A stretch of 64,000 nucleotides of DNA from Alcanivorax sp. DSM 26293 (GTDB lineage Bacteria; Pseudomonadota; Gammaproteobacteria; Pseudomonadales; Alcanivoracaceae), in NCBI RefSeq assembly GCF_900107995.1, contig NZ_FNUM01000001.1, positions 631,695-695,694 on the forward strand, written 5' to 3'. The position numbers and the translations under genes are program-made. Of the stretch, positions 13,206 to 64,000 are shown piece after piece. Each line of letters starts with the position of its first letter. Position 1 is the first letter of the stretch. Under the pieces are notes generated by a model. That model was not told the DNA's origin. It made no database searches and worked only from the letters and a program-made list of their open reading frames with translations.

Positions 13206-14072
13206 ATGATTCATTTACTTTCCACAAGCCCAGCCCTTCTTGTTGGGCTCTGTGTCTTTATGGGCCTGTTGGTCGGAAGTTTCCTTAACGTGGTGATTTA
13301 CCGTCTGCCGGTAATGATGGAGCGCAGCTGGAAGCAGGAGGCCCGGGAAATTCTGGCGCTTCCCCCGGAGGAGGATGGCGAGATTTTCAATCTGGTCACC
13401 CCCCGCTCCCGATGCCCCAAGTGTAACCATGCCATTACCTGGTACGAGAATATCCCGGTCATTAGCTGGCTGGTGCTGAAAGGCAAATGCAGAGAGTGCC
13501 ATACGCCCATCAGCAAGCGTTATCCGGTTATTGAGCTGACCAGTGGTCTGCTGGCCGGGCTGTGTGCCTGGCATTTCGGTTACGGCCCCTGGTTGCTCTT
13601 TATGCTGTTTGCCACCTGGACCCTGCTCGCCGCGGCCATGATTGATGCGGATACCACCCTACTGCCAGACAGCATGAATTATCTGCTGCTGTGGGCCGGC
13701 CTGCTGGCAGCCTTGATAGGGGTGTCACCGGTATCCCTGCCCGATGCGGTGGCTGGCGCCATGGCGGGCTATCTTTCCCTGTGGAGCGTGTACTGGCTGT
13801 TCAAGCTACTCACCGGCAAGGAAGGGATGGGCTATGGTGATTTCAAATTGCTGGCCGCCCTGGGGGCCTGGACGGGCTGGCAGTATCTCCCGCTGATTAT
13901 CCTGTTGTCTTCCGTGGTGGGACTGGTGTTTACCCTTCTCGCGACGCTGTTCGGTGGTGAAAAACGTACCCAGATCCCCTTCGGTCCCTATCTGGCCGCC
14001 GCCGGCTGGATTGCCTTGCTGTGGGGCGATACCATCGTCAGTTCGTATCTGGGGATGTTTAAGATCAGTTGA
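13206..14072 (+). CDS. pilD: prepilin peptidase / N-methyltransferase
   Basis: Integral membrane aspartic protease that cuts prepilin leaders and N-methylates the new Phe. The 288-residue protein shows the N-terminal A24 domain with two zinc-binding CxxC pairs (RCPKCNH and KCRECHT). The catalytic aspartates lie in [14 protein letters not shown] and [16 protein letters not shown]. The start is the ATG giving MIHLLSTSP; an in-frame ATG 27 bases upstream overlaps the pilC end and lacks a better ribosome site. Its stop codon lies inside the first unit of a heptad repeat arm. Confidence 0.96.
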
Positions 14073-14166
14073 CAGTGGACAATTGATAATTGACAGCTAA
14101 AAGCAAAACCTAAAGCTTGGACGAGTTTGAGCTTTCGCTGTCAACTGTCCACTATCAACTGTCAAC
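14068..14166. repeat. heptad-repeat cassette 1 (pilD-coaE gap)
   Basis: Four 7-base units GTTGACA, GTGGACA, ATTGATA, ATTGACA followed by GC form the left arm (14068-14097). The right arm (14137-14166) is four inverted units of the same type. Between them AAAGCT and AGCTTT can pair as a weak hairpin. The first unit overlaps the pilD stop codon. See the five similar loci. Confidence 0.85.
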
Positions 14167-14236
14167 TCTTCCCCCAATAAGCTATTGCATCACAGCCATC
14201 CGTTAATTGACTGTGTTGAATTCGGAGTTCCCCCCT

Positions 14237-17523: not shown

Positions 17524-17544
17524 AACCCATTCCTTGAAAATTCA

Positions 17545-17643
17545 GCTACTAGCTTTAAGCGACGAGCTACTAGCCATAATAACGAAAAGCACCGGTGAAA
17601 ACCGGTGCTTTTGTATTTCTCGTCGCTGGAAGCTCGTAGCTAG
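17545..17643. repeat. heptad-repeat cassette 2 (secA-argJ gap)
   Basis: Left arm units GCTACTA, GCTTTAA, GCGACGA, GCTACTA then GC (17545-17574). The right arm has inverted units TCGTCGC, TGGAAGC and TCGTAGC. The units differ from cassettes 1, 4 and 6 in base content but keep the 7-base step, the count and the trailing GC. A strong terminator hairpin lies between the arms. Confidence 0.85.
17585..17612 (-). terminator. secA terminator
   Basis: AAAAGCACCGGT and ACCGGTGCTTTT form a perfect 12-bp stem with a four-base loop and A/T tails, 35 bases after the secA stop. Confidence 0.85.
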
Positions 17644-20578: not shown

Positions 20579-21511
20579 TTAGCGTCGCGCACGGTAAATA
20601 TAGGGCTGGGGATTCACCTGGGTACCATTTTTTAGCACTTCATAATGGATGTGCGGCCCCGTGGAACGGCCAGAACTGCCCACTTTGCCGATCACATCCC
20701 CGGTGCGGACAATCTCCCCGGCTTCTACCGAGAGTTCCTTGGCATGACCGTAGCGGGTAGAGATGCCATTGCCATGATTGATTTCCACCATCAGGCCATA
20801 ACCTGAGCGGTCACCGGAGTAGGTGACCACACCGGCACCGGTAGCAATAATCGGCGTCCCTTCCTTGCCGGCAAAGTCCACCCCCTTGTGCCAGGCAACG
20901 CGGCCGGTGAACGGGTCGGAACGGCGCCCGAAACGGCTGGACATCCAGCCTTTGGCCAGCGGACGACCGGAAAGATAGGTCTGATCTTCGATCTGCTTGC
21001 CGGCCAACAGATTTTCGAGAATCTCCAGCTGACGCTCACGACGTTCCAGGGTCTCCGCCATCTGGTTCACGGCCTCCATAAAGGACGGCAATTCGTAGCT
21101 GGCACCCTCGTCCGAGCCTTCCGGCCCCCCCAGCCCTGGCACAGTGCTGAAGTCAAATTCCTCGCCATCAATATCCGCCACTTCCACCAGCCGCTCGCCC
21201 AACGCATCCAGTCGCACCAGGCGGGCCTGGGCCTGGGCCAGTTTCAGGGTCAGCGCCCGGAATTGTTCCTGACTGAGACGATCCAGCGATTCCAGGGCTT
21301 TCTGCTGTTCCTCCAGATGGGTGGAGAAACGTTCGGTCATTACTGGCGTATACTCAGGTTGCTCGCTGAGTTGCGATACCAGCAGGTAACCGCCAACGCC
21401 CGAGAGCAGCGGCACTACCACCAACACAGCAGCCAGCAGCCAGGGCCAATGACGGGGCACCGGCAGTGTTCGCGAATGGCCTCGCTTGCTGTTAATGACT
21501 AAGATATTCAT
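20579..21511 (-). CDS. M23 family (LytM-type) metallopeptidase, membrane anchored
   Basis: A 310-residue peptidoglycan-active M23 protein of the periplasm, anchored by one N-terminal membrane helix (about residues 24-47). A helical, partly coiled-coil region (about 60-185, for example LEEQQKALESLDRLSQEQFR) precedes the LytM domain. Zinc motifs are complete: HKGVDFAG supplies HxxxD and TGPHIHYEV supplies HxH, so it may be an active endopeptidase rather than a degenerate activator. Genes of this type commonly sit between dciA/lpxC and secA in gammaproteobacteria. Confidence 0.92.
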   Translation of the reverse strand: MNILVINSKRGHSRTLPVPRHWPWLLAAVLVVVPLLSGVGGYLLVSQLSEQPEYTPVMTERFSTHLEEQQKALESLDRLSQEQFRALTLKLAQAQARLVRLDALGERLVEVADIDGEEFDFSTVPGLGGPEGSDEGASYELPSFMEAVNQMAETLERRERQLEILENLLAGKQIEDQTYLSGRPLAKGWMSSRFGRRSDPFTGRVAWHKGVDFAGKEGTPIIATGAGVVTYSGDRSGYGLMVEINHGNGISTRYGHAKELSVEAGEIVRTGDVIGKVGSSGRSTGPHIHYEVLKNGTQVNPQPYIYRARR

Positions 21512-39826: not shown

Positions 39827-40244
39827 GCGTGAGCACCCGGTCAAACGTAAAAGAATTTCCAGACAAATCAGCCTGTTAGCGGTATCACAGAGAATGAACA
39901 AAGGGATGAACGGAGGGAGTTTCGAGACGAATCAGAGCGCTGGAACGCGCAAGTGAGAAAGCACTTTAAGTGTTAGACGGATTAGTTATTACTAACTTTG
40001 TTTATATTCCATACCTAAATGATTAGGCCTTGTTCGGACACGGGCCAGCGACAGGATTGACGACCCGGCAGGCCGACGCCGCCCCCAGTGCCATCAACCC
40101 GATCGGAAAAGCGCAGCACATGTTGGTCATTGTCGAGACAGAGGGATTGATCTGCGCCAACCTCCAGGCTGCAAGCACGGCAAGTCCGAGGTCTTCGCAT
40201 GATTGGACAACGAGCGGGACCAAGAAGAGAAGGTATTACAAGGA
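39827..40244. other. gap between mraZ promoter and rnpB terminator, no clear gene
   Basis: About 420 bases. The part from 39880 to 40020 is AT-rich and shows nothing recognisable. A small minus-strand frame at 40023-40223 (66 codons, beginning MVPLVVQSCEDLGL) is open but has no recognised domain or clear ribosome site, and I do not call it a gene. Confidence 0.5.
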
Positions 40245-40308
40245 GCGAGCCACGAGTCACGAAAGGCAAAACCCGTCTTGGGTTTCGCTTCTCGCAACTC
40301 GCGCATCG
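40245..40308. repeat. heptad-repeat cassette 3 with rnpB terminator
   Basis: Left arm GCGAGCC, ACGAGTC, ACGAAAG then GC (40245-40267). The right arm is inverted units of GCGAGTT, GCGAGAA and GCG type (40286-40308). Between them AAACCC and GGGTTT make a hairpin that probably ends rnpB on the minus strand. The units are more degenerate than in other cassettes. Confidence 0.6.
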
Positions 40309-40320
40309 TTACTGAATAAA

Positions 40321-40689: not shown

Positions 40690-40718
40690 AGTCTAAACAG
40701 TTAATAATTAATAGTGAA
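40690..40718 (-). promoter_or_regulatory. rnpB promoter with GC-rich discriminator
   Basis: TTCACT and TAGACT on the minus strand, 17 bases apart, followed by CCGCCCCG, the kind of discriminator seen at stable-RNA promoters. It predicts a start at about 40684, agreeing with the RNA 5' end. The -35 lies inside a heptad repeat arm. Confidence 0.65.
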
Positions 40719-40862
40719 TAATTAATAGCTGCGCGGACCGGGTTTTCTGATCTTGAAACGCAAGAGGCCGCGCGCCCTAACGTTGAGCGCGGCCTCTTGT
40801 GCCTGAAAAACGACCAAACCGGATCGCGAGTTATTCATTATTAACTATTAATTATTCATTGC
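40700..40862. repeat. heptad-repeat cassette 4 (rnpB-rsmI gap)
   Basis: Left arm GTTAATA, ATTAATA, GTGAATA, ATTAATA then GC (40700-40729). Right arm four inverted units (40830-40862). A long terminator stem lies between. The right arm runs into the end of rsmI, so its last codons and stop are made of repeat units. The left arm contains the rnpB -35. Confidence 0.9.
40761..40799 (-). terminator. rsmI terminator, shared stem family
   Basis: CAAGAGGCCGCGC and GCGCGGCCTCTTG form the stem. The same stem core recurs after dolP and after the DegS-like gene. It separates rsmI from rnpB. Confidence 0.8.
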
Positions 40863-45205: not shown

Positions 45206-45211
45206 AGAGCA

Positions 45212-45240
45212 GTGGCAAGTTGAAAGTTCAAAGTTGCAAA
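45212..45240. repeat. heptad-repeat cassette 5 (dolP-sspB gap), one arm
   Basis: Units GTGGCAA, GTTGAAA, GTTCAAA and GTTGCAA followed by AGC. An opposite arm is not clear; only GCTGCAACTT near 45409, against the sspB end, could be a remnant. A strong terminator lies between. Confidence 0.75.
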
Positions 45241-45337: not shown

Positions 45338-45380
45338 AAAGAGGCCGCGCCCACAGATTTGGGCGCGGCCTCTTTTTTTT
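45338..45380. terminator. terminator between dolP and sspB, shared stem family
   Basis: GAGGCCGCGCCC and GGGCGCGGCCTC form a perfect 12-bp stem, with A run before and eight T after, between convergent genes. Confidence 0.9.
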
Positions 45381-45415
45381 CAGATCAGCCCCTTACTCAG
45401 CAGGCGCGCTGCAAC

Positions 45416-49692: not shown

Positions 49693-50121
49693 TTAAATTT
49701 CCAGCTGCTGCGGCTGCTGAGCGGTATGCGGATGCTCAGTGCCTGCGTAAACTTTCAGTTTGCGGAACATGGCGCGACCCAGGGGGTTACGCGGCAGCAT
49801 GCCCTTCACCGCCTTCTCAATGATCATTTCAGGCTTTTCGGCCTGCAGAGTGGAGAAGTTGGCTTCTTTCAGGCCACCCGGATAACCGGTGTGACGGTAG
49901 TACATCTTGTCATTTGCCTTGTTACCGGTAACGGCCACTTTATCGGCATTGACTACGACGATGTAATCACCGGTATCGACGTGTGGAGTAAACTCCGGCT
50001 TGTGTTTACCGCGCAGACGGCTGGCGACTTCGGTCGCCAACCGACCCAGCGTTTTGCCGGAGGCGTCTACCACATACCAGTCGCGCTTTACGCTTTCCGG
50101 TTTTGCGCTGTAGGTCTTCAT
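49693..50121 (-). CDS. rplM: 50S ribosomal protein L13
   Basis: Large-subunit assembly protein L13 of 142 residues. [40 protein letters not shown] and the [19 protein letters not shown] block are standard. I used the ATG giving MKTYSAK and rejected the longer frame upstream. First of rplM-rpsI; a promoter and a leader stem-loop lie upstream. Confidence 0.98.
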
Positions 50122-51481: not shown

Positions 51482-51644
51482 CTGTAGGAGTTCCCATCCT
51501 GGGGACGAACCGAGCGCAGCGAGGCAACAGCGGTTTCAAAAACCCTGTTCTTCCAGAAACCTGTCGAGCGCTGACATCCCTGATCGCCCTGCGGGCGATT
51601 TCCACGCTAGCGCGTGGTTCGCGCCTCGAGAGCCGCTCCTACAG
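51482..51644. repeat. REP-like inverted pair
   Basis: CTGTAGGAG at the left and CTCCTACAG at the right frame the region. The right end reads, in reverse, CTGTAGGAGCGGCTCTCGAG, the form of REP sequences common in pseudomonads. Inside, ATCGCCCTGCGGGCGAT and CCACGCTAGCGCGTGG form two more hairpins. The 330-base gap holds this and a TetR operator candidate, and no gene. Confidence 0.7.
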
Positions 51645-62309: not shown

Positions 62310-63422
62310 ATGGGGGCATTGTCGGTGATCAGAGCCTTTCGTTTTTTTGCCGGACCGATTCTGGCGGGGCTGGCCGTGGGCCTGGCCGTGCTGTGGTGGT
62401 ATGAGTGGGGTCCGAACGCTCGCCCCGGGCGCTACGACAGCGGCACCGCCAGTTATGCCGGCGCCGTCAACCATGCGGCTCCGGCAGTGGTCAATATTTA
62501 CACCACACAAATCCTCACCAGCGATGACGTGCCGGAAGACCCGCTGTTTAACCGCTTTATGGAAGAACCCCGCCGGGAACGGGCCCTGAACAGCCTGGGT
62601 TCCGGGGTTATCGTGGACGACGAGGGCTACATCCTTACCAGCTATCACGTGATCCGCGACGCAGACGAAATCCTGGTGGCCCTGCGTGACGGCCGCGATG
62701 CCCCGGCCCGGGTGGTGGGCACGGACCCGGAGACCGACCTGGCCCTGCTTCATGTGGCACTGGAAAACCTGCCGGAAGTGGAACTCAACGGTAACGGACC
62801 GGTGCAGGTGGGCGATGTGGTGCTGGCCATCGGCAATCCCCTTGGCGTAGGGCAGACCGTTTCCATGGGGATTGTCAGTGCCACCGGGCGCAGCCATCTG
62901 GGCATTGCCACTTTCGAGAATTTCATCCAGACCGACGCGGCCATCAACCGCGGCAACTCCGGCGGCGCCCTGATTGATACCCGTGGCCACCTGATCGGCA
63001 TCAACACCGCCATCCTCTCCGCTGACGGCAGCTGGCAGGGCATCGGTTTTGCCACCCCGGCCTCCATCGCCCGGGAAGTGATGCGTGACCTGATCGACCA
63101 TGGCCGGGTGATTCGTGGTTATCTGGGGGTTACCGTGCAGGATATTACCCCGTCCCTGGCCGAGACCTTCGGCATGGACGAAGTGCGCGGTGGTGTGATC
63201 ACGGAAGTGGTCATCGACAGCCCCGCCCACAAGGGTGGCCTGCAGCCCGGCGACGTACTGGTGGGCATCGACGGCACCGCCATGGCCGACGGCTACGAAG
63301 CCATGAACCGCATTGCCGGCATGAAGCCAGAGCAGAAAGTCAGTCTGAACATCGTCCGTAACCGCCAACCGCTGACCGTAGATGTGGTGATTGGTACACG
63401 GCCGCCGGCAGAAACGGAATAA
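62310..63422 (+). CDS. degS: periplasmic site-1 serine protease, DegS/AlgW type
   Basis: Membrane-anchored trypsin-like protease with one PDZ domain, expected to cut RseA/MucA-type anti-sigma factors in envelope stress. The N-terminal helix (residues about 10-30) anchors it. The triad is His113 (TSYHV), Asp143 and Ser217 (RGNSGGAL). The PDZ domain starts near residue 275 (RGYLGVTVQDITPSLAE). The protein has 370 residues. The ATG is used; an upstream in-frame TTG lacks support. AlgW is the pseudomonad name of the same type. Confidence 0.94.
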   Translation: MGALSVIRAFRFFAGPILAGLAVGLAVLWWYEWGPNARPGRYDSGTASYAGAVNHAAPAVVNIYTTQILTSDDVPEDPLFNRFMEEPRRERALNSLGSGVIVDDEGYILTSYHVIRDADEILVALRDGRDAPARVVGTDPETDLALLHVALENLPEVELNGNGPVQVGDVVLAIGNPLGVGQTVSMGIVSATGRSHLGIATFENFIQTDAAINRGNSGGALIDTRGHLIGINTAILSADGSWQGIGFATPASIAREVMRDLIDHGRVIRGYLGVTVQDITPSLAETFGMDEVRGGVITEVVIDSPAHKGGLQPGDVLVGIDGTAMADGYEAMNRIAGMKPEQKVSLNIVRNRQPLTVDVVIGTRPPAETE

Positions 63423-63426
63423 AGCA

Positions 63427-63585
63427 GTTAACAGTGAATAGTTAATAGTGAACAGTGCGCGTGAGCGCTTATCTGTCTCTGAAACGCAAGAGGCCGCGCC
63501 CAAGCGATGGGCGCGGCCTCTTGCGTTTCAAGTCAACCCAGCGGGCTGTCGCGCCGCTGTTAACTATTCACTGTTAACTGTTAAC
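63427..63585. repeat. heptad-repeat cassette 6 (degS-DUF4139 gap)
   Basis: Left arm GTTAACA, GTGAATA, GTTAATA, GTGAACA (63427-63454), then GTGCGC. Right arm four inverted units TGTTAAC, TATTCAC, TGTTAAC, TGTTAAC preceded by GC (63556-63585). The arms begin five bases after one stop and end six bases before the other. This is the clearest example of the family. Confidence 0.9.
63481..63529. terminator. bidirectional terminator, shared stem family
   Basis: GAAACGCAAGAGGCCGCGCC and its complement form a perfect stem of more than 20 bp around a short loop, at the centre of heptad cassette 6. Confidence 0.85.
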
Positions 63586-63590
63586 TGCCT

Positions 63591-64000
63591 TCAAAGCCCT
63601 TCCACCCCACTCAAACTTTCCCCTGCCGGATAACGAATCTCAAAGCCCTGCTTGAAGCGTTCTTCGCCCCCCGCGGGAAGAGTGAATTGCCAGCGTTGCA
63701 GGCCTTTCACATCATCCACATCCTGTGCATCCGCGGCCTTGCCCTTGGCGGTAACGGTAATATCGTCGTTGCCGGCCACGGGGAGGCGATCCAGCAGGTT
63801 TACCGTGATCGGCTTGTCGTAATGGGAAAGGAGGGTGATGTTCTTGATCGCCGACAGGGTACTTTCCTTGCTGATCAGACCGGTTTCCCCTTCCCGGGAA
63901 GGCTCCCGGGTCACGGTAATCTGAAGGCGCGGATCGTCGCCAAAGCTCATTTTCACCTTTTCACCCTGCTTGATACTTTGCTGGCGGTGGTAGCGGGTCA
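63591..64000 (-). CDS. DUF4139 domain protein, C-terminal part (N-terminal part outside window)
   Basis: The last 136 residues of a protein that continues beyond the window. KNITLLSHYDKPITVNLLDR, LPVAGNDDITV, LQRWQFTLPAGGEERFKQGF and EIRYPAGESLSG are typical of DUF4139 C-terminal domains (mucoidy inhibitor MuiA-like proteins). The function of the family is not settled. Its stop lies next to heptad cassette 6, convergent with the DegS-like gene. Confidence 0.85.
   Translation of the reverse strand, partial: TRYHRQQSIKQGEKVKMSFGDDPRLQITVTREPSREGETGLISKESTLSAIKNITLLSHYDKPITVNLLDRLPVAGNDDITVTAKGKAADAQDVDDVKGLQRWQFTLPAGGEERFKQGFEIRYPAGESLSGVEGL

Follow-up and report, generated by a model that had tools for sequence, protein, structure and literature searches.

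What keeps a single layout of seven-base repeats at the ends of genes when the repeated word itself changes from one gap to another? This question is raised by a 64-kb stretch of DNA (59% GC; hereafter the window) from Alcanivorax sp. DSM 26293, part of the 3.7-Mb genome that we refer to as G000 (C7:631695-695694), and in particular by the gap that follows its gene for a DegP-like protease. Four nucleotides past the stop codon of this gene begins a left arm of four RTKAAYA heptads (GTTAACA, GTGAATA, GTTAATA and GTGAACA; 63427..63454, + strand), which is answered by a right arm of four RTKAAYA heptads in inverted orientation (63558..63585, - strand). The 103-bp core between them (63455..63557) has CGCG boxes adjoining the arms and, from its sequence and folding, a central hairpin, GAAACGCAAGAGGCCGCGCCC/GGGCGCGGCCTCTTGCGTTTC, with a stem of 20 bp or more (63481..63529). 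Elements of this kind are cassettes in which two facing arms, usually with four degenerate heptads apiece, enclose a core of largely free sequence.

An initial annotation of the window had named six loci with tandem heptads in such cassettes, and a scan for periodicity points to the same places. A threshold of 17 of 22 matches leaves seven lag-7 regions in the window (14065-14095, 14137-14169, 40699-40727, 40830-40861, 45211-45239, 63423-63458 and 63556-63589), all of them at the named loci, while there are zero regions at lags 4-6 and 8-13, and the two at lag 14 both fall on named heptad loci. With a looser threshold of 14/21, lag 7 yields 10 regions, two of which lie outside the named loci (21424-21454 and 50084-50111), and lags 4, 5, 8, 10, 11 and 13 yield one or two each. 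The same excess is found in orthologous blocks from 15 genomes (836 kb, threshold 16/21), which hold 82 lag-7 and 52 lag-14 regions, compared with 0-2 each at lags 4, 5, 8, 11, 13, 16, 17, 19 and 20, 12 at lag 10, and 11-22 at lags that are multiples of three, as expected of coding sequence. A Markov control of these blocks gave 0-5 regions per lag and one at lag 7; two of the 15 blocks (G001 and G002) have no lag-7 region. Three consecutive RTKRAYA units match G000 127 times on the forward and 122 times on the reverse strand (two matches per four-unit arm), against 4 and 6 matches for the reversed pattern. Matches occur in all 17 genomes of the genus comparison set, G000 included, and range from 2 in G001 to 433 in G015. 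The 32-base arm CAGTTGACAGTTGATAGTGGACAGTTGACAGC was found in 34 named contig stretches, all assigned to Alcanivorax, Alloalcanivorax, Alcanivoracaceae or one 'Pseudomonadales' metagenome-assembled genome.

A search of the genome and its relatives, as the initial annotation had proposed, was carried out on 1.87 Mb of DNA from the Alcanivorax group with seven consensus patterns, or flavours: F1 (RTNAAYA), F2 (RTNGAYA), F3 (AGCNNCA), F4 (GTNNCGA), F5 (GTNNAAA), F6 (GAYGCNN) and F8 (AYGCNNC). Counting only runs of at least three units, we found 286 arms, of which 233 have exactly four, and zero arms in the Markov controls. The four-unit share is 78/96 in F1, 92/99 in F2, 22/31 in F3, 16/18 in F4 and 15/19 in F5. 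Within a heptad, about five positions are constant and two variable in most flavours, as against four and three in F1 and F2, whose position 3 is free in the pattern, yet almost exclusively T or G. None of the consensus patterns of F1-F6 or F8 requires a G-tract. A 'GY' register common to all flavours, which the heptad GGGANTN does not fit, is not relied on here.

Neighbouring arms no more than 220 bp apart face each other in 91 of 99 pairs, and 87 of these 91 share one flavour, whereas shuffling gave a mean of 24.3 and a maximum of 36. The step of seven, the usual count of four and the inverted symmetry that had been remarked on despite different base compositions are thus borne out across the group. 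Core length is also typical of a flavour, with 99-105 bp in 24 of 29 F1 pairs, 96-110 bp in 18 of 33 F2 pairs, 98-103 bp in 6 of 11 F3 pairs and 93-98 bp in 7 of 9 F5 pairs. A class of short cores (24-75 bp) takes in all four F4 pairs, five of F2, four of F3 and one of F1. The hairpin word GGCCGCG..CGCGGCC occurs in 31 of the 87 same-flavour cores; in the 28 cores measured, its distance to either arm is 35-40 bp.

The cassettes take a definite position relative to genes, as counted in gaps of 60-1500 bp from our own home-made gene caller. Arms are carried by 61 of 174 convergent gaps and 93 of 553 tandem gaps, and divergent gaps are avoided (2 of 186). A total of 171 arms follow a stop codon in the sense direction, 50 overlapping the stop, 87 beginning within 10 nt of it and 34 lying further away; a further 81 gap arms, 75 of which are in tandem gaps, lack a stop codon on the outer side. 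In the 31 convergent gaps with both arms, a median of 8 nt is left outside the cassette, so that the cassette usually is the spacer from stop to stop, and in 52 tandem gaps the median distance is 4 nt on the stop side and 71 on the start side. Only 13 of the 286 arms lie mostly within called genes; the arrays are otherwise dispersed and intergenic.

Comparison with sister species shows that the same gaps keep their arrays while flavours are frequently replaced. From G000, 198 of 289 gaps were mapped in G004 and 147 of 289 in G016. Where a G000 gap has arrays, its counterpart has them too in 20 of 23 cases in G004 and 13 of 17 in G016, compared with 20 of 175 and 6 of 130 where the G000 gap lacks them. 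In 26 comparisons at 18 gaps the flavour is the same in 15, different in 10 and partly different in one. No detected arm retains the G000 flavour in the 10 changed comparisons, with all four arms detected in two of them (gaps 107 and 126). The earlier argument that simple copying does not account for the pattern therefore holds between flavours and fails within a flavour, where the 92 four-unit F2 arms comprise just 31 distinct sequences. At the gap after the DegP-like gene, F1 arms are present in G000, G004 and G016, and inspection by eye finds ATTGATA-type units in G003 and G012, ATTAATA-type units in G010, a long one-sided GACGCCT array in G013, ACGC-type words in G015 and nothing in G006, G009 and G002. 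The flavour at the gap of the RNase P RNA gene varies among species in much the same way.

To follow individual positions, arms were aligned whether or not they had been detected in the relative; of 52 comparisons, 41 were alignable at 60% or more and 11 were left out. Among orthologous F1 arms, constant sites changed in 6 of 300 cases and variable sites in 32 of 224, while 223 of 1255 sites changed in the 35 nt inside the arms of all flavours. Since the F1 constant positions are conserved in place, F1 matters to the cell at its site and not just for spreading. Differences in F2, whose figures include F2-to-F1 swaps, pile up at position 4 (43/47), which is that swap, and positions 2, 5 and 7 changed at 1-2 of 47-48. 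For the core of the DegP cassette in G000, the better match to the G016/G004 core is in reverse complement (97 versus 90 identical of 109), with spacers that match at 24/30 and 28/31 in reverse complement and at 21/31 and 21/30 directly; this single case is suggestive of core inversion between species. Separately, the G004 gap orthologous to G000 C7 ~507770 holds a short cassette split by an insert of ~270 bp with its own inverted ends.

The idea of a process is supported in part: something keeps this pattern, the simplest candidate being a factor that reads four pentamers per arm. We tentatively favour, at somewhat short of even confidence, the reading that these are extragenic cassettes, typically of ~160 bp, whose two facing four-heptad arms are read by a sequence-specific factor and which form a boundary at gene 3' ends. 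The putative factor would read the constant part of four consecutive heptads, as pentamers, and would require two inverted arms. Once bound, the cassette may act as a boundary at the 3' end, in combination with a terminator hairpin in those that have one, and because of such a function selection would keep it. Cassettes would spread and replace one another by copying or recombination between cassettes, not by a transposition that leaves target duplications.

It is possible, though in our view rather unlikely, that the cassettes are instead miniature mobile elements whose arms serve as terminal inverted repeats (TIRs) for a transposase or recombinase and whose flavours are subfamilies, in the manner of REPINs (hairpins built from repetitive extragenic palindromic, REP, sequences) or the TIR families of REP-associated tyrosine transposases (RAYTs). 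The near-identical F2 copies, the typical cassette length, the wide range of RTKRAYA counts in the genus, the arm-like matches on plasmids and in viral contigs and the swapping of gap contents between sister species would all be expected of such elements, and G001, with the fewest RTKRAYA matches, is the sole genus member without a Y1 transposase match. Of the two marks of a classical miniature inverted-repeat transposable element derived from an insertion sequence, however, the cassettes have the terminal inverted repeats and lack the target-site duplication: in 91 cassettes, direct repeats 4-9 bases long in the 12 nt that flank the arms are at chance level. The Y1/RAYT genes do not point to the heptads either. 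Among ~60 Y1 matches listed, 24 loci were examined; a heptad array lies within 500 bp at 1 of 20 and GTAGG-type REP-like repeats lie within 900 bp at 13 of the 20, and four further loci have no heptad array. Y1-less G001 has five F5 matches against two each in G002 and G004, cores in the distant genome G270 (see below) are unrelated, and orthologous F1 copies that have stayed in place retain their constant positions. A RAYT/Y1 transposase as the heptad reader, first hinted at by G001, is disfavoured because the examined Y1 loci mostly carry GTAGG repeats and G001 is not the genome poorest in F5. By inspection, the arms show neither a palindrome nor a GTAG (or CGTC) tag. The Alcanivorax Y1/RAYT genes are themselves flanked by REP-like inverted pairs of the GTAGGAGC type (L247, L248, L250, L258, L260, L262 and L266), with a run of these repeats at ~93-bp spacing beside the gene in L260. 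One lone GTAGG-type REP-like sequence is found in the window at 51642 on the - strand.

A second alternative, which we judge improbable, is that the arms pair in the transcript as an RNA stem that extends a terminator or shields the mRNA 3' end, with the variable positions as tolerated mismatches. Facing orientation and a flavour common to both arms speak for a stem, the heptads of the P6b stem in the Nostoc trnL intron offer an analogue, and the transcript 63421-63590 folds at z = -13.9 relative to shuffles with its arms paired. F1 arms also form a more stable pairing with the partner from their own cassette than with arms of other F1 cassettes (-26.6 versus -23.6 kcal/mol; 0 of 400 shuffles as stable), which may reflect the matching of sub-flavours only. 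The preference is not clearly seen in the other flavours tested, where shuffles were as stable in 51 of 400 cases for F2, 365 for F3, 295 for F4 and 47 for F5 (21, 9, 4 and 9 distinct pairs, respectively), and arm pairing as the entire reason for the layout is unsupported in F2-F5. Compared without register shift, partners are identical at variable positions at a rate of 0.690 in F1 (0.628 shuffled) and 0.816 in F2 (0.755 shuffled), whereas identity is not above the shuffled level in F3 and not significantly so in F5. Pairing demands neither one pentamer across the four units of an arm nor four units, and for 46 of the 253 arms that lie in called gaps, the 230 bp on the inner side hold no array.

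We consider it highly improbable that replication slippage favouring seven-base steps made the heptads, with template switching at the hairpin to mirror them and decay thereafter. In most bacterial genomes, heptanucleotides are described as more common than any other class of long simple repeat (PMC4679880), and units can be lost: by eye, the number of units in the gap before coaE ranges from four (G000, G004, G016 and G013) through three (G015) and two (G005) to one (G012). Slippage would make neighbouring units alike, but of 360 adjacent pairs in four-unit arms 20 are identical, where within-arm shuffling predicts 47.6 (0 of 5000 shuffles as low), and the unit count is sharply four in most flavours. 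The effect is carried by F1 (6/138, 18.5 expected) and F2 (4/93, 13.6 expected), numbers that are weakened by shared ancestry, as the copies are not independent. It is absent in F3 (7/45, 7.0 expected) and weak in F4 and F5 (354 and 277 of 5000 shuffles), and the same weak lean is seen in arms from viral contigs (35/108, 39.5 expected, 319/5000), G270 (3/57, 4.9 expected, 968/5000) and G423 (13/27, 15.6 expected, 211/5000). An excess of like neighbours was not seen in the arms of F3-F5, G270 or G423. Identical units are less frequent within than between F1 arrays (0.134 versus 0.165), as also in F4 and F5, and slightly more frequent within arrays in F2, F3, F6 and F8. Arrays of at least six units follow the opposite trend, with 83 of 90 identical neighbours in Alcanivorax (77.1 expected) and 184 of 280 in viral contigs (167.1 expected), so that there seem to be two regimes, degenerate four-unit arms and slippage-like long arrays. 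Near-pure examples of the latter are TAGCTCG with ~30 units in G003 (L145) and GACGCCT with 15 or more in G013 (L137) and G015 (L149), and they coexist with degenerate four-unit arms in these genomes. For the four-unit arms of F1 and F2, slippage is disfavoured, their adjacent units being less alike than chance, the opposite of what it predicts. The initial annotation had inferred a process that makes or keeps the pattern; keeping agrees with the F1 constant positions conserved in place, but no result here shows heptads being made, and the unit order of F1 and F2 runs against slippage. G-quadruplexes, for which four units supply four G-tracts, fit the GGGANTN arrays of Xanthomonas described by Rehm et al. 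(PMC4692102) and those of G423, but are scarcely credible here and are excluded as a general cause, since RTKRAYA, GTNNAAA, AGCNNCA and GTNNCGA have the same count and layout without a required G-tract.

Slippage thus fails on the sharp count of four and on dissimilar neighbours, pairing on the single pentamer of each arm and G-quadruplexes on words without G-tracts; a factor reading the constant part of four heptads in two facing arms would explain these features. Several points weigh against that factor reading. The seven consensus patterns were picked after the sequences had been inspected, and arms within one flavour are related by copying, so arm counts are not independent. F6 (8/15 arms with four units) and F8 (2/8) are less sharply four, F8 having mostly five units in its register (5/8). 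The conservation test is clean for F1 only, on the 41 alignable comparisons of 52: pooled over all flavours, constant sites changed at 87/702 and variable sites at 96/457, a weaker contrast that is in good part due to flavour swaps, and F3 (21/158 versus 15/64), F4 (5/16 versus 2/12) and F5 (8/38 versus 6/14) show no clean contrast alone. The own-partner preference of F1 means that pairing itself could matter, the long arrays in the same genomes look slippage-like, and a mobile element with an unidentified transposase would yield several of the same facts. No heptad-reading protein was found, with RAYT as the sole candidate tested.

Outside Alcanivorax, three consecutive AGCNNCA units occur in 8 of 276 class genomes and are strong only in G000 (94 matches) and G270 (54), a gammaproteobacterium of another family. 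Exactly four units make up 15 of 26 AGCNNCA runs in the G270 stretches, and among the 12 facing pairs the core measures 83-94 bp in seven, 5-13 bp in three, and 124 and 171 bp in two. The nine cores longer than 40 bp have no BLAST similarity to one another and most G270 cores have no hairpin comparable to that of the window, so the hairpin, which had been taken as a defining part, is not one. G270 elements are uneven, with one 412-kb stretch holding eight lag-7 clusters, some of which are not heptad arms. A 26-base F1/F2 pattern is present in 7 of 397 genomes of the phylum, the six others having 1-5 matches, all pure repeats. Arm-like matches on plasmids have E-values below 0.01 in Tritonibacter, Gloeothece and Crinalium and are weaker in Nostoc, Annamia, Parabacteroides and Halorussus; among phage records there is one faecal phage at 2e-4 and two weaker matches. 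In viral contigs the pattern occurs in 85 stretches, of which 80 were scanned, with four units in 46 of 107 arms and 8 of 13 neighbouring pairs facing. Contigs L343, L313 and L330 carry four-plus-four RTKRAYA arms, with a hairpin within them in L343 and L330. GGGANTN is found in 12 of 357 class genomes, and in seven short stretches of G423 its 12 arms have four units in six, three in three and five in three, with all four neighbouring pairs within 250 bp facing; the search patterns used for viral contigs and G423 need nearly four units, which biases the count of four in both against shorter arrays. Other class genomes were sampled mostly as one 4-20 kb stretch each, too small for prevalence. 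We regard it as doubtful, if conceivable, that the cassettes belong to a widespread class defined by geometry (four heptads, facing, often ~160 bp, at stop codons) rather than sequence, in which a family of heptad-reading factors with interchangeable specificity would lead successive lineages to rewrite both arms at a given gap with a new word.

The initial annotation named no precedent for this inverted-arm plus terminator layout; the inverted four-unit arrangement is not entirely new, as Rehm et al. 2015 (PMC4692102) describe Xanthomonas GGGANTN heptads in which five positions are conserved and two vary, mostly in four units, and which form 70 and 75 inverted, facing pairs in the two genomes given. 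These pairs are mostly intergenic, lie nearer to the end of the upstream gene and are found between divergent genes in 7-8% of cases, and the four-unit count is linked there to a G-quadruplex. The Alcanivorax cassettes share the mode of four and the facing pairs, with three variable positions in F1/F2 and mostly five units in F8. They differ from the Xanthomonas repeats as presented there in using several non-G words with matching arms and in having flavours that differ between species at one gap, and their count of four is independent of G-tracts. REP sequences, bacterial interspersed mosaic elements, REPINs and RAYT TIR families, as outlined in PMC3733652, likewise lie 3' of genes in convergent and tandem gaps as noncoding, high-copy inverted pairs, whereas the heptad arms are non-palindromic, have no GTAG tag and are not beside the examined RAYT genes. 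In the account of the Nostoc trnL P6b stem (PMC4476775), degenerate heptads TDNGATT or NNTGAGT repeatedly replace each other as classes, as flavours do, but within one intron and not dispersed, with a varying number of units. Other intergenic tandem heptads are the Calothrix heptanucleotides (cited in PMC4692102) and the TAACTGA direct repeats of Beggiatoaceae, cyanobacteria and Bacteroidetes, patchy over phyla (PMC4679880). TAACTGA (TCAGTTA on the other strand) is close to F1/F2; the passages on it mention one indirect repeat and report no four-plus-four inverted layout. For GGACCGG in Geobacter metallireducens, the description in PMC2700814 gives 49 elements with four tandem heptads, some inside genes, and in that description inverted arms are not mentioned, unlike the cassettes here. 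Cyanobacterial short tandemly repeated repetitive sequences are similar as dispersed, intergenic tandem heptanucleotides. The slippage account of heptad repeats is that of Mrazek 2007, as cited in PMC4679880 and PMC4692102. No prior report of a multi-flavour heptad layout surfaced in the top-ranked literature on Alcanivorax heptamers or on heptads with hairpins, terminators or inverted repeats, subscription papers being outside the scope.

Three of the six loci in the window, 63427-63585, 40700-40859 and 14068-14166, are of RTKRAYA type with four plus four units, as first described. The left arm of the second, four RTKAAYA (RTTAATA-like) heptads, adjoins the RNase P RNA gene (40700..40727, + strand), with the right arm at 40832..40859 on the - strand. 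That gene is the sole Rfam match in the window at gathering thresholds. The third is a short cassette with a 43-bp core, four RTKGAYA heptads on the left (14068..14095, + strand) and a right arm at 14139..14166 (- strand). The type IV prepilin peptidase gene, identified by Pfam, terminates inside the first of these heptads (window 14037-14095), which overlaps its stop codon, and by eye the species with arrays after this gene have the stop TGA with RTKGAYA-type units and TAA with RTKAAYA-type units.

The other three loci stood in part. The one first given as GCTACTA/GCGACGA lies at 17544-17641 and adjoins secA; by eye it has AGC every seven bases, in four left units (AGCTACT, AGCTTTA, AGCGACG and AGCTACT, then AGC; 17544..17574, + strand) and three right units (17619..17641, - strand) around a terminator-like hairpin (17585..17612), and it falls below the lag-7 threshold. 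In the TCG-type locus at 40243-40313, the right arm of four units (40286..40313, - strand) is supported by the lag-7 scan (40275-40302 at 14/21), and the left arm (GAGCGAG, CCACGAG and TCACGAA; 40243..40263, + strand) is under threshold. The GTTGAAA-like locus retains its left arm of GTTNAAA-like heptads (AGTGGCA, AGTTGAA, AGTTCAA and AGTTGCA; 45211..45238, + strand, recovered by the lag-7 scan), and its right partner has by eye decayed to about one unit. Downstream of this lone arm is the hairpin AAAGAGGCCGCGCCC/GGGCGCGGCCTCTTT followed by T (45338..45375), and a stem and then T are seen by eye at 45338-45383 and 17585-17612. At the DegP locus the strong stem is present, and a consensus terminator scan that requires a T-run found none in 63300-63700. 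Neighbours of the cassettes in Pfam and Rfam are the DegP-like protease (trypsin-like and PDZ domains), the prepilin peptidase, CoaE, SecA, ArgJ, an RsmI-like methylase, a BON-domain protein and the RNase P RNA.

These marine oil-degrading bacteria carry many short gene-end cassettes that keep one layout across quite different seven-letter words. The explanations given so far for heptamers in the sources cited here, polymerase slippage and G-quadruplexes, do not fit one layout with several unrelated words, and the swapping of flavours at orthologous gaps within a single genus makes the question of a heptad reader testable.
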